From an uncultured Lachnospiraceae bacterium (GTDB lineage: Bacteria > Bacillota > Clostridia > Lachnospirales > Lachnospiraceae), in assembly GCA_950097145.1 (NCBI GenBank), contig CATNCF010000007.1:25572-89571 (forward strand): DNA of 64,000 bases. The letters are read 5' to 3'. Position 1 is the stretch's first letter, and every line of letters begins with the position of its first letter. The notes beneath the pieces were generated by a model, which had not been told where the DNA came from, made no database searches, and saw only the letters and a program-made list of their open reading frames with translations. Of the stretch, positions 18,278-62,734 are shown in pieces. Made by a program: the position numbers and the translations under genes.

Positions 18278-18733
18278 TCATTTATCACTCTCCCCTGCAT
18301 ATTTAAAATGAATCATCATAAGATACTTAAGCCATTTATCTTTTTTATTCTTAGGTTTTATAGTTAATCCAATAAAAAATGTTGATAACGCCATCATTCC
18401 GTATCCAAGCAAGTCATAACTAAACAGTAATCCAGCTATCATCATAATGTAACCTAAAGCCAGAAATATACATACAAGATATTACTCCGGCGGTTAAATG
18501 TCGACGAATTTTACGAAGAATAAATTTTCATCTGCAAGGCGGAAGAATGAGTTGTAGCGAGTGCTACAACGATTGATGACAACGCGGCAGATGGAAATTT
18601 AAGCAAGTAAAAACGTCGATATTTAACCGCCGGAGTAATAACATCCAAATTTTGATATAACCATAAAAATTGCAAATAAAAATACTGATACCGTAACCAA
18701 CAACGAACCAAATTTAGCAATCGCTTTATTCAT
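18278..18733 (-). pseudogene. Small membrane-protein gene interrupted by a 157-bp element
   Basis: The ATG at 18733 opens a frame MNKAIAKFGSLLVTVSVFLF... that reaches a stop inside the inserted element after about 36 codons. If the element (18482-18638) and one flanking TA are removed in silico, the frame runs on for 98 codons as a three-helix membrane protein ending in a basic tail (KPKNKKDKWLKYL...). The stop overlaps an ATG (ATGA). It lies at the head of the DUF262 genes behind a promoter-like region and a perfect palindrome, so it may once have been part of that operon. I do not recognise the family. Confidence 0.85.
18482..18638. mobile_element. MITE-like palindromic element, family 2, copy 1
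   Basis: A 157-bp sequence flanked on both sides by TA (18480-18481 and 18639-18640), with terminal inverted repeats of about 26 bp including TTACTCCGGCGGTTAAAT. It folds almost completely on itself: outer stem, TTTTAC/GTAAAA, an ATCTGC/GCAGAT arm and a central GTTGTAGC-GAGT-GCTACAAC hairpin. It has no coding capacity. It interrupts a membrane-protein gene, and removing it with one TA restores the frame. TA flanks and size are what one expects of elements moved by Tc1/mariner/IS630-type transposases. Confidence 0.9.
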
Positions 18734-57956: not shown

Positions 57957-60900
57957 TTATTTCTTCTTGACCGTGGAAATCACGGCTGACACCGGAGCGG
58001 TCTCATCCCCGTTTCCAGTCTCTTTTCCAATGGTTCCCACTGCTGCAACCTTATAATAATAAACAGTTCCTTCGCTCACTTTGCTGTCCTTGTAACTTAC
58101 TGTTCCATTCCCGCTTACCATGGCAATCATTTCATATTCAGGATTCCCGTTTGCAGCTCTTAGCACCGCATAACCGGTGGCTCCTTTGACTTTCTCCCAT
58201 TGAAGCTGCATAGTTCCCGGGCTGTCCGGCGTTACAGACGGTCTGGAAGCTGTTACTTTCAGACCCTTAGGTGCAGGAAGCATCCACTTTTCTGCAATTT
58301 TGCCAGAACTTCCATAGCCAGTATATTTTCCCTCACGAATTGCGCGGACACGATAATAATACCTCTTTCCGGCCGTTACGTTTTTATCTGTAAAACTGGT
58401 ATAATCGGCATTTTTTATCTTTGCAATCTGCTGGAACCCGCTGCTGGCTGAGTTACTTCTCAATACGATATATGTATTGGCTCCATCCGCTTTCTTCCAG
58501 CTCAGAGTAATGCCATTCTTCCCTGCCTGGATGGAACTGATACTTATCTTCTTTAAATTGAATGCAGACTTTGGTTTGGAATCCCCGCTGTAATTTTTTA
58601 CTTTATTTTTCTTAGTGATAACTTCCACTACATAGAAATACTTTTTGCCGCCTGTCACGTTTTTGTCCACGTATTTCGTGATATCACGGTCACGGAGTTC
58701 AGCAATCTTTGTGTACTCTCCACTTTTCTTGGTGCTTCGTTTTACACTGTAGGCATAAGCATCCGCATGTTTCTTCCATTTCAGCTCCATACTTCCGCTG
58801 CTTTTGGATCTGACATAAATCATTGACGTGCCAGTGATGGTCTGGCCAGAAACCGCCTTACAGTAACCGCTGTAACCACTCTTATTATTGACGCGGTTAA
58901 TGGTCTGAACTTTATAATAATATGTCTTTTTCTCTTTCACTTTCTCATCAATATAGGAAGTTTTTCCATTCTTGACAGTTGCAATAACTTTGTATTTGCC
59001 TTTTTTGGAATCAGCTCTCTGGATTCGGTAAGCATAGGCATTATCTACCTTTTTCCAACGGATCAGCAAAGATGTGCTGGTTTTGGAGCTGACACTGGAA
59101 ATAGAGGTCTTTTGCACCGCCCAGCCGGACAATATCTTAGAATAACTGCTGTAACCATTCTGTTCCCCGCCTCTGGCACGGACTTTATAAAAATATTCTT
59201 TCTGCATTTCCAGATTCTGATCAACGTAAGCATTTCCAGCTAAATTGGCAATCTTACGATAAGTGCCGTCCTTAGCGTCGCTGCGCCACAGATCATAACT
59301 CTTAGCGCCTTCAATGGCATCCCATTTAATGTCCAGCTTGCCGCCGCTTCTGGAAACAATTCCGTTAATTACAGGGGCTGCCAGAGAACTTCCGGGATAG
59401 ATTCTGGAAAAAGAAGATTTATTGCCGTCTGAATACACAGCACATACCTTATAATAGTAAGTTATGCCTGGTTTTATCTTCTCATCATCATAGACATCTC
59501 CTCTGAGTTCTGCAATCTTCTTATATTCACCTGCCTCAGAATCACTCCGGTACACCTGATAAGATTCTGCGTCCACTGCCTGGTTCCAGCTAATCCGCAG
59601 TTTCTTGCTTCCTCTTGGCTGAATCCACTGAATTTCCGGCTGGCTGGTTCCAACCGTCAGACCATAATACTGCACGATTCCTTTTGCGTCTGCAAGTCCA
59701 AGATTCTTAAGCTTCGTATCAGAATTTAAAAACTTGCTGACATCGCCTGAATTGCTCAAAAATGCATGTTCTATCAGCACTGCGGGAATCCCTGCCAGCT
59801 TGCTTCTTCGTATTACGGCTAGATAATCTGCAAGAGAACCGTCGGGATATAACGTATTGTTTTCTGAATTATGTATCAGAACCCCGCCTGCCCAGGTATC
59901 AAGCCCCAGTGCGCTGAGTTTTTTATAGATCTCTGTAGCCAGTCCTTTTCCCTCTTCTCCAATGGCTGGACGATAGCTGCTGTTGGGATAATACACTCCC
60001 ACTCCTGAAGGAAGTGAACTTGGACTGGAATTCAGATGAAAACTCACATAAACATCTGCTTTTTTATCCTTAGCAAGTTCTACCCTTTGAGCGTTACAGG
60101 TACTTGAGCTGACTTTGCTTCCTCCAAATGGACAGGTATTGCTTTCTCTGGTCATATAGACGCTGACGCCTGCATACTTCTGAAGTTCTGCCTTACAATA
60201 TTGGGCAATTTTTAAAACCGCTTCTTCTTCTTTACACCCATTTCCCCGGGCGCCTGCATGGGTGCTGTCATGCCCTGGATCCAGCATGATTCTCATATTT
60301 TTTACTTCGCTTGGGGTTACAACAGCCCGCCCCCTGGAAAAACGCTGCAAACCCTCGGATGCTTCCAGTACATTTTCCATATTGTTTTCAGAAACAATAG
60401 TTCCATTTTCATCCAAAGTGACCACATTCGCTTCCACTTCTTCCAGAAGCTCCTTATCAAACAAAAGCTCATCTGGCTCAGTCTCCGTCTGGCAGTTCAC
60501 GCCAAATTCTACTTCCATCCCAAGCTCAGCAAAATTTACCTGATAAGTCTTTCCCTCTGCCACATATTGAATAGAAGCCAGTTTATAGATATCCGCCTGA
60601 TCTTCATCTGTAAAGTCCATGGTAAATTTTACGGTGCTGTCCACAATTCCTGCAGCCTCTTTCGTAAAGTTCTCTCCTGTGCTGTTCTGATAACAGAGCT
60701 GCGCGTTCTCTGCAGGTTTGCCTTCCTCTCCAAGGTCGGCAACAATATTCTGGGTTCCCGGCGTCTCAACAAAGGTACTTTCCTGCATGACAAAATTAAG
60801 TTTACCCGGCAGAATTTCCTGTTCTTCCTCTGTTTTGGCCTTTCCTTCCATTCTGCTGTTTTCTAGATCCTGCACAGTCTGGCCAGTTTCGGCATTCTCT

Positions 60901-61040
60901 TCGCCTGTGCTTCCAGCCAGCCCCTGCATAACATTCTTTCCATTTTCTGCAGATTCTTCTGCCTGTACCCTAATGCCTGACGAAGATAAAATCAGACATA
61001 CTGACAACAGAACTGCTGCCCACTTTTTTAACAACCTCAT
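57957..61040 (-). CDS. Large secreted Amidase_3 protein with multiple FnIII-like repeats
   Basis: A 1027-residue secreted wall hydrolase. The signal peptide starts at MRLLKKWAAVLLSV; the ATG at 61040 follows GGAGTGTGGAAG and is preferred over the track start. After an acidic stretch comes an Amidase_3 domain (about 245-460: IMLDPGHDSTHAGARGNG, VSFHLNSSPSS, VLIEHAFLSN). The C-terminal half holds about six fibronectin-III-like repeats (SYQVYRSDSEAGEYKKI, YYYKV pattern). Together with the glucosaminidase next to it, it can cut both peptide and glycan bonds of peptidoglycan. Confidence 0.92.
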   Translation of the reverse strand: MRLLKKWAAVLLSVCLILSSSGIRVQAEESAENGKNVMQGLAGSTGEENAETGQTVQDLENSRMEGKAKTEEEQEILPGKLNFVMQESTFVETPGTQNIVADLGEEGKPAENAQLCYQNSTGENFTKEAAGIVDSTVKFTMDFTDEDQADIYKLASIQYVAEGKTYQVNFAELGMEVEFGVNCQTETEPDELLFDKELLEEVEANVVTLDENGTIVSENNMENVLEASEGLQRFSRGRAVVTPSEVKNMRIMLDPGHDSTHAGARGNGCKEEEAVLKIAQYCKAELQKYAGVSVYMTRESNTCPFGGSKVSSSTCNAQRVELAKDKKADVYVSFHLNSSPSSLPSGVGVYYPNSSYRPAIGEEGKGLATEIYKKLSALGLDTWAGGVLIHNSENNTLYPDGSLADYLAVIRRSKLAGIPAVLIEHAFLSNSGDVSKFLNSDTKLKNLGLADAKGIVQYYGLTVGTSQPEIQWIQPRGSKKLRISWNQAVDAESYQVYRSDSEAGEYKKIAELRGDVYDDEKIKPGITYYYKVCAVYSDGNKSSFSRIYPGSSLAAPVINGIVSRSGGKLDIKWDAIEGAKSYDLWRSDAKDGTYRKIANLAGNAYVDQNLEMQKEYFYKVRARGGEQNGYSSYSKILSGWAVQKTSISSVSSKTSTSLLIRWKKVDNAYAYRIQRADSKKGKYKVIATVKNGKTSYIDEKVKEKKTYYYKVQTINRVNNKSGYSGYCKAVSGQTITGTSMIYVRSKSSGSMELKWKKHADAYAYSVKRSTKKSGEYTKIAELRDRDITKYVDKNVTGGKKYFYVVEVITKKNKVKNYSGDSKPKSAFNLKKISISSIQAGKNGITLSWKKADGANTYIVLRSNSASSGFQQIAKIKNADYTSFTDKNVTAGKRYYYRVRAIREGKYTGYGSSGKIAEKWMLPAPKGLKVTASRPSVTPDSPGTMQLQWEKVKGATGYAVLRAANGNPEYEMIAMVSGNGTVSYKDSKVSEGTVYYYKVAAVGTIGKETGNGDETAPVSAVISTVKKK

Positions 61041-61083
61041 CTTCCACACTCCATTCTGACATTCTTTTTCATAATTTGTACCT

Positions 61084-61112
61084 ATGGTATCATAATTTTT
61101 TGTCGAGTACAA
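61084..61112 (-). promoter_or_regulatory. Probable promoter of the amidase-glucosaminidase-glycosyltransferase genes
   Basis: On the minus strand TTGTAC (61112-61107) and TACCAT (61089-61084) are 17 bases apart, with TG just before the -10 box. It lies about 45 bases before the chosen ATG. Confidence 0.6.
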
Positions 61113-61170
61113 CCTTAGAAAAGGATATTACAAAAACTTTACATTTTTCCCAAATCTTTCGTAATTACAA

Positions 61171-61429
61171 AAAAGGGCTGCTGCAAAATGCAGGGATTCT
61201 ACAATATATTACTAAGGCGGTTAAATGTCGAATGAATTTTACGCAGAATAAATTTCTATCTGCAAGGCGGAAGATTGAGCTGTAGCGAGTGCTACAGCGA
61301 TTGATGACAACGCAGCAGATAAAAATTTAGACAAGTAAAAACATCGACATTTAACCGCCTTAGCAATAAAGTAACAAAAAGAGTTTGTACCGTATATTGT
61401 AGAAATCCCTCTTTTACAACAGCCCCTTT
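61171..61429. repeat. Outer palindromic element, family 3, carrying an inserted family 2 element
   Basis: Two arms of about 38 bases (61171-61208 and 61393-61429) are imperfect inverted repeats with ends like AAAGGGGCTGTTGTAAAA and TTCTACAATATA. In silico removal of the inner element (61209-61366) and one TA leaves a hairpin of about 100 bases with a 24-base loop. Size and ends resemble palindromic MITEs or very long terminators. There are no internal genes. Confidence 0.75.
61209..61366. mobile_element. MITE-like palindromic element, family 2, copy 2
   Basis: A 158-bp relative of the element at 18482, flanked by TA on both sides (61207-61208, 61367-61368). The ends are TTACTAAGGCGGTTAAATG and its near-perfect inverse (one mismatch). 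The central hairpin is GCTGTAGC-GAGT-GCTACAGC. Against copy 1 the outer CC/GG pairs become AA/TT, T-A becomes C-G in the centre, and C-G becomes T-A in the ATCTGC arm, all compensated. It has no coding capacity. Confidence 0.9.
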
Positions 61430-61462: not shown

Positions 61463-62734
61463 TTATTGCCTGTACGTAATCCAAAAGCAATAGTTTTTTG
61501 TACTTTGGAAGTTCTTTTTTCCTACCCTCTTATTAGCCACAACCATAAAATAATACTGCTTTCCCTGTTTCAGGCTGGCTTTCCCGCATGTTCGAACCGT
61601 CATAGAGGTTTTGGCAGTACTTTTCACCTTCTTATAACCAGAAGTTCTTCTGGTAGAAATATATACACTGTAGCTCTTGGCGCCGCTCACCTTATCCCAT
61701 GTCAGCAAAATACCGCCCTTTGTGTTCTTCGTTGTTACATCTGGCTGCCTGGAAAAATAAATCCAGTCAGACCATTTGCCGTATTTGGAACTTCCAGGTA
61801 TTTCAATGTAACCGCGTATCCTTAGTTTCAGAAAACGAAGGCTTTTCAATTTACCAGTAATCAGATACGTGCTGTTTCCATCTCCTGCCTTCTTCCCGGT
61901 AAGCAAAGCCTTCTTCCCGTCTTCCGCAAAAATCTGATACTGATATCCGTCTGCAGAATCACTTTTCTTCCAGCCCAAATCCAAATGCTCAGAAGTGGGA
62001 CTCCAAAAGCTCGCTTCCACTCCCTTAATTTTGGCGGGAAGCACCGGACACCCGGAAAGATTTGCCGTATGGCTGCCCAACGCCCGAAATCCGCTGGAAC
62101 TTTTTTTCACTGGGATCAGCCAGAAATCATATTCTGTATTTTTGCTGAGTTTTTTAGCTGTGTATGAATTTACCTTGCCAAGCTGTACCACTTTCCTGTT
62201 TTTTACATCTGCGCCCTTTTTTCCATAAGCAAGCTGATAAGCATTGGCGCCTGCACTTTTTTTCCAGGAAACCGTAATACTGGTTTCCGACGCCTTTGTC
62301 TGGCGGAAATTTTTGACTTTATCATCTGCAGGAGCAGTCACCACTTCCAGTACTTTGGAGGCAGTTCCCCAGGAAGACTGGGGAACTTGCTCATCTGTCA
62401 TAACAAAGGCTGTCACTCTGACATAATATTTACTGCCCGCCGTAAGCCCTGAAAAACTCTCCTTTGGCAAGGCTGTCCCCCTGCTTCCGGCGCTGAGATT
62501 ATCCATAACGCCTCCAGTAAAATTCTTATTTTCACAAAGTTCCACCTTATACCTGATGTTATTGCCTATCACTGCTTTCCAGCTAATTTCTATCCTGTTT
62601 GGACCCGCAAAAGTCTGTTTCAGCCCGCTGGTTCTGCCCACAACTGCTGCTTCTGATTTCATGCCAACTCCCAAAAATAATATACTTACTATCATCATGG
62701 TATATAATTTTACAATTTTCCACACTTTTCTCAT
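61463..62734 (-). CDS. Secreted protein of FnIII-like repeats
   Basis: A 423-residue secreted protein: signal peptide (about 1-30, ending SEAA) and about four fibronectin-III-like domains, each with a Trp-Lys strand (ISWKAVIGNN, VSWKKSAGANAYQ, LGWKKSDSADGYQ, LTWDKVSGAKSYS) and a KYYVRV-type strand. There is no catalytic domain. It is probably a wall or surface adaptor that shares its repeats with the two hydrolases next door. AGGGAGG precedes the ATG. The LCP gene ends 68 bases upstream. Confidence 0.82.
   Translation of the reverse strand: MRKVWKIVKLYTMMIVSILFLGVGMKSEAAVVGRTSGLKQTFAGPNRIEISWKAVIGNNIRYKVELCENKNFTGGVMDNLSAGSRGTALPKESFSGLTAGSKYYVRVTAFVMTDEQVPQSSWGTASKVLEVVTAPADDKVKNFRQTKASETSITVSWKKSAGANAYQLAYGKKGADVKNRKVVQLGKVNSYTAKKLSKNTEYDFWLIPVKKSSSGFRALGSHTANLSGCPVLPAKIKGVEASFWSPTSEHLDLGWKKSDSADGYQYQIFAEDGKKALLTGKKAGDGNSTYLITGKLKSLRFLKLRIRGYIEIPGSSKYGKWSDWIYFSRQPDVTTKNTKGGILLTWDKVSGAKSYSVYISTRRTSGYKKVKSTAKTSMTVRTCGKASLKQGKQYYFMVVANKRVGKKNFQSTKNYCFWITYRQ

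Follow-up and report, generated by a model that had tools for sequence, protein, structure and literature searches.

A short IS630-type element nested in a hairpin element best read as an IS1182-type MITE in an uncultured Lachnospiraceae bacterium

The window, a stretch of 64,000 nucleotides from an uncultured Lachnospiraceae bacterium, carries a composite of two elements between two genes on the minus strand (Table 1). We refer to the inserted element as "family 2" and to the inverted repeat that it splits as "family 3". An earlier note on this DNA had described an inverted repeat split by a 158-bp element at 61171-61429, and the structure is confirmed, with the repeat at 61174-61426, a few bases inside those limits. 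The stop of the gene at 61463-62734 precedes the composite by 36 bp; the gene that follows (57957-61112) probably starts further in than the TTG from which its longest frame runs. The hairpin and the adjacent T run on the minus strand (61169-61173) resemble an intrinsic terminator of the upstream gene, and the composite may still terminate transcription; a consensus terminator scan, with the loop limited to 8, did not list it. As a separate observation, one end of family 2 and its target TATATT form a promoter-like match at 61231-61203 on the minus strand (TCGACA, spacing 17, TATATT, 10 of 12 positions, a match to consensus only), directed toward the next gene.

Table 1. Features of the composite and its surroundings, in window coordinates
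Feature	Position	Strand	Remark
Gene following in transcription, 1051-aa ORF from TTG start	57957..61112	-	amidase-like by inspection
A run on plus strand (T run on minus), immediately outside family 3	61169..61173	-	
Family 3 element, interrupted (IS1182-type MITE, best reading)	61174..61426	.	253 bp with insert, 93 bp without
Family 3 left arm (AGGGCTGCTGCAAAATGCAGGGATTCTACAATA)	61174..61206	.	
TA, left copy of target duplication	61207..61208	.	
Family 2 element (IS630-type MITE)	61209..61366	.	158 bp, without coding gene
Family 2 left terminal inverted repeat	61209..61231	.	arms 96% complementary
Family 2 inner hairpin (GAGCTGTAGCGAGTGCTACAGC)	61277..61298	.	fold
Family 2 right terminal inverted repeat	61344..61366	.	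arms 96% complementary
TA, right copy of target duplication	61367..61368	.	
Family 3 right part: loop remainder and right arm (..TACAACAGCCCC)	61369..61426	.	
Gene upstream in transcription, 423 aa	61463..62734	-	fibronectin-III-like repeats by inspection
Second family 2 copy in the window, outside any family 3	18475..18642	.	

When family 2 (ends TTACTAAGGCGG.. and ..CCGCCTTAGCAA) is removed and the flanks are rejoined with one TA, the product is a 93-nt hairpin with a folding energy of -38.6 kcal/mol, against -13.7 ± 3.1 kcal/mol for 300 shuffled sequences. What the earlier note had described as an ordinary hairpin element, family 3, is itself mobile. Rejoining without TA gives -33.8 kcal/mol and with both copies -38.4 kcal/mol, and the near equality of the values for one and two copies means that folding alone cannot tell one TA from two. 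The window has a single occurrence of the family 3 arm GGGGCTGTTGTAAAAGAGGG, and with up to three mismatches allowed the arm had no hits in shuffled sequence. An Rfam search returned only a chance-level hit.

Family 2 is abundant. The window's own genome (3.05 Mb in 80 contigs, 82.8% complete) contains about 40 copies, and matches were found in 23 of the 29 genus genomes searched, in other Lachnospiraceae records and, as ends, on two viral contigs. Many contigs of the window's genome end within family 2 copies (C11, C14, C16, C26, C46, C53, C60 and others), so the count of copies is a minimum, and the element itself breaks up the assembly. On one contig (C46:2-300, L028) two copies lie head to tail with a common junction region. 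A size of 157-158 bp is dominant, other classes measure 45-77, 181 and 211 bp, and all copies are shorter than about 310 bp. Among about 250 loci inspected, family 2 ends were not seen on any element of IS size; such elements surfaced only via a DDE_3 search. That search of the genus for IS630-type transposases yielded two intact IS630-family elements of about 1150 bp, both in one genome (G016; L302 and L289). Their transposase has 348 aa and scores 205 bits against NF033545 (IS630; cutoff 100) and 116 bits against PF13358. They end in TTACTTTGGCGGTTAAAACTCGAC and TTACTTCGGCTATTAAAAATCGAC, compared with TTACTAAGGCGGTTAAATGTCGA for family 2; by hand count, TTACTTTGGCGGTTAAAACTCGAC is identical to the window copy at 19 of 24 positions. 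TA stands outside both ends of both elements, and the flanks differ between the two.

That TA is also the target of family 2, as the earlier note had proposed, is supported by two copies inserted within genes. With one TA kept, the frame through C10:72492 stays open for 83 aa, compared with 62 or 46 aa otherwise. At C6:34898, in a flagellin-like gene, one TA alone yields ..DIFDN-SYVSMDIF.., a frame read by hand where the automatic longest-frame script had chosen the opposite strand. Because both frames close with exactly one TA, duplication of TA on insertion is supported. The flagellin-like gene also holds a stretch resembling another dispersed repeat, AAAATAGCCATGTTT(A/C)CATGGATATTTGACG, which belongs to neither family and occurs in several genus genomes, many of its loci (L152-L170) being in G028.

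In its TA duplication, in ends common to the intact IS630-family elements of the genus, and as a short, multi-copy, non-coding and palindromic sequence without a transposase, family 2 agrees with MITEs of the IS630 family (IS630/Tc1/mariner superfamily), and an IS630 transposase would have mobilised it in trans. It differs in that its exact autonomous partner is absent from this genome: a search of the window's genome, at 82.8% completeness, for an autonomous IS630 with family 2 ends found weak fragments only, and the L302 transposase has no match in the weak fragment of IS630 type found there. Family 2 was not found as a named MITE family in the open-access literature searched.

Family 3 occurs independently of family 2. 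The earlier note had proposed a search for family 3 without the insert, its reading being at odds with arms that never stand apart from family 2. With the restored, insert-free sequence as query, at least eight uninterrupted copies were read in the same genome (C10:16332, C3:24401, C29:23268, C20:240, C18:46593, C68:1786, C2:178272 and C3:25741). Related species hold about 20 others, and most copies measure 96-97 bp. An exact 16-base pattern of the family 3 end is present in 13 of 29 genus genomes, and its reversed control in none. The ends are conserved, while the inner arms diverge between species yet remain complementary, with changes on both sides in 6 of 19 consensus pairs. A contig scan with the strict family 3 pattern gave no matches; viral contigs gave three matches to the end, each single and unpaired. 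There are also short hairpins, 42-49 bp long, that have the outer sequence of family 3. In the loop of the copy at C3:24401-24498 (L032:202-297) stands TATTACTAAG, an exact family 2 end adjoining the point that matches the insertion site of the window copy; it could be a scar or chance, an excision scar being disfavoured by the standard length of the copy (96 bp).

The affiliation of family 3 comes from its ends. At 15 of 15 positions the end sequence GGGGCTGTTGCAAAA equals the left end of L344, a decayed IS1182 element in G016, the genome with the most family 3 end matches (8). The N-terminal fragment encoded by that element matches PF13751 and scores 35 bits against NF033551, below the whole-protein cutoff, as expected of a fragment. 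The exact family 3 end was found on this decayed copy only; intact IS1182 copies of the genus have a related end, GGGGCTGTCGC, not GGGGCTGTTGC. In the window's own genome (82.8% complete), a search for an autonomous IS1182 with family 3 ends found weak fragments only. Its ends, common to IS1182, and its presence and absence at orthologous sites make an IS1182-type MITE the best reading of family 3, and the transposase family that moved it would, by its end sequence, be IS1182. Families 2 and 3 thus match two unrelated transposase families, IS630 and IS1182 respectively.

A second copy of family 2 within family 3, at C11:7147-7326, places family 2 in the outer left arm, after TGTTG, whereas in the window it lies in the inner left arm. 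Together with the uninterrupted copies of family 3, this second, independent nest supports the order of events given in the earlier note, family 3 first and family 2 later. By a rough estimate, with about 40 insertions spread over 3 Mb, of which family 3 makes up about 1 kb, about 0.01 nests would be expected, or about 0.1 if family 2 insertions were limited to spacers, and two nests exceed that expectation. The presence of family 2 within family 3 at two places might suggest that all 253 bp form one element moving as a unit, but we regard this as extremely improbable: family 2 lies at differing points of family 3 in the two nests, each family occurs apart in many copies, and the 253-bp unit was not found a second time. 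The nesting is therefore real and was correctly read, and it is of a known kind. Nested MITE/IS insertions are familiar in bacteria, where they give the order of events, and the present case differs only in the families and in the host lineage, a Lachnospiraceae-type genus. The host element, family 3, is the more interesting part of the finding.

Family 3 sits at or in terminator hairpins and does not use TA. In the hom-apgM spacer it is present in the window's genome alone and absent from the relatives inspected, an absence which indicates that the element has been mobile over evolutionary time. Some of those relatives have another, different short hairpin in the spacer, and the site is compatible with replacement of a stem-loop, the ancestral state being uncertain. 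At a locus beside a gene for a RecD-like helicase (protein read by inspection), G016 carries family 3 inside a terminator hairpin, with one hairpin arm on either side of the element, AAAAAAGGCAAGAC TGTTAT [element] ATTAT GTCTCTGCC TTTT, where the empty site in G012 reads GGCAAGAC CGTTAT GTCTCTGCC; the two genomes are 98% identical at another locus. Ordinary terminators, free of family 3, occupy the same position in seven other species (G001, G002, G004, G007, G009, G010 and G026/G027). Insertion into a hairpin loop is read from this one empty/filled pair, in which the stem of the target hairpin is retained and the loop seems to have been duplicated over 3-5 bp, depending on where the element ends are placed. 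In G012 the same terminator also occurs with a different element (L358 and L359, in the first 150 bases of contigs C11 and C5), which ends in CACGACAAACGC.. and shows TCTCTGCC as a repeat of 8-9 bp. Terminators seem to be hot spots for insertion.

Flank statistics provide a second line of support for hairpin targeting, after the resolved site. Across the family, copies lie at gene ends and the flanks are biased, A-rich on the left and T-rich on the right. With a gapped score for the complementarity of the flanks of 31 copies, the observed mean was reached by 21 of 10,000 re-paired permutations, a signal carried by a few copies. An ungapped complementarity test and a duplex-energy test of the flanks gave no signal, and no conventional target duplication of note was detected at family 3 copies. 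The flanks of the window copy score 5.0, a value reached by 17% of re-paired flanks; they are not unusually complementary, so that a hairpin target for this particular copy is unproven.

Two other accounts of family 3 deserve consideration, and we consider each of them improbable. Its location at the ends of genes, the A-rich flank on its left and the T-rich flank on its right, the 42-49 bp hairpins with the same outer sequence, and the lack of a clear target duplication at most copies are what one would see if family 3 were not mobile at all, being an ordinary or selected intrinsic terminator of conserved sequence that was hit by chance by an IS630-type MITE. A terminator of that kind is hard to reconcile with the uniform length of 96-97 bp, the conserved 15-base ends common to the decayed IS1182 element, the absence from the orthologous hom-apgM spacer of relatives, or the empty/filled pair in a terminator loop. 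The ends could also point to a different family. IS6 elements end in GGNNCTGTTGCAAA, which resembles GGGGCTGTTGCAAAA, and insertions 3' of genes do the least harm; family 3 might accordingly derive from IS6 or another IS family with a similar end, its location at terminators reflecting survival, not targeting. IS6 insertion is expected to leave 8-bp target duplications, but none was seen at family 3 copies, and it is an IS1182 element that carries the family 3 end exactly.

Very probably, then, a non-autonomous element of one transposase family inserted into a non-autonomous element of a different one. In the history that we propose, an IS1182-type MITE of about 95 bp would first have entered just downstream of the minus-strand gene whose end is at 61463. 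It probably landed in that gene's terminator hairpin or took the hairpin's place, if the target was indeed a terminator. Later the 158-bp IS630-type MITE would have inserted at a TA of family 3, within the inner left arm, by cut-and-paste with duplication of the TA. Neither element encodes a protein; for both, the transposase would have acted in trans, supplied by full-length relatives. As a hairpin followed by a T-rich flank, family 3 could substitute for the terminator that it disturbs.

The nearest known system is IS1272, of the IS1182 family, which is reported to insert at inverted repeats whose sequence is not fixed, often immediately 3' of a gene, and in doing so to delete the stem-loop without duplication (PMC5678879, PMC4923244). 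Family 3 resembles IS1272 in its targeting of stem-loops, often terminators directly 3' of genes, in the lack of a conventional target duplication, and in an end shared with an IS1182-family element found in the genus. At one resolved site, and in the gapped flank score, the target is seen to be an inverted repeat. The differences are that family 3 measures about 97 bp and lacks a transposase and that, whereas IS1272 deletes all or part of the stem-loop, the sole empty/filled pair of family 3 retains the stem, with 3-5 bp of loop apparently duplicated. A possible pathway in which the loop alone is duplicated has been drawn (PMC5678879). Our literature search found no paper on an IS1182-type MITE, and one that seeks hairpins appears to be undescribed in the open-access literature searched.

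It is possible, though we advance it tentatively, that family 3 represents a new non-autonomous class that transposes in IS1182 fashion into terminator loops, duplicating the loop and itself resembling a terminator. If so, family 3 would rewrite gene ends across a genus of gut bacteria at little cost, and its loop duplication would be the pathway drawn as possible, not shown, for IS1272; G012 and G016 provide a ready pair for comparison. The nest itself orders two transposition events and links each to a transposase family. The host element indicates that terminator hairpins can serve as landing sites for elements that lack genes and are hairpins in their own right. This bears on the evolution of gene ends and on the choice of structured targets by enzymes of the IS1182 family.
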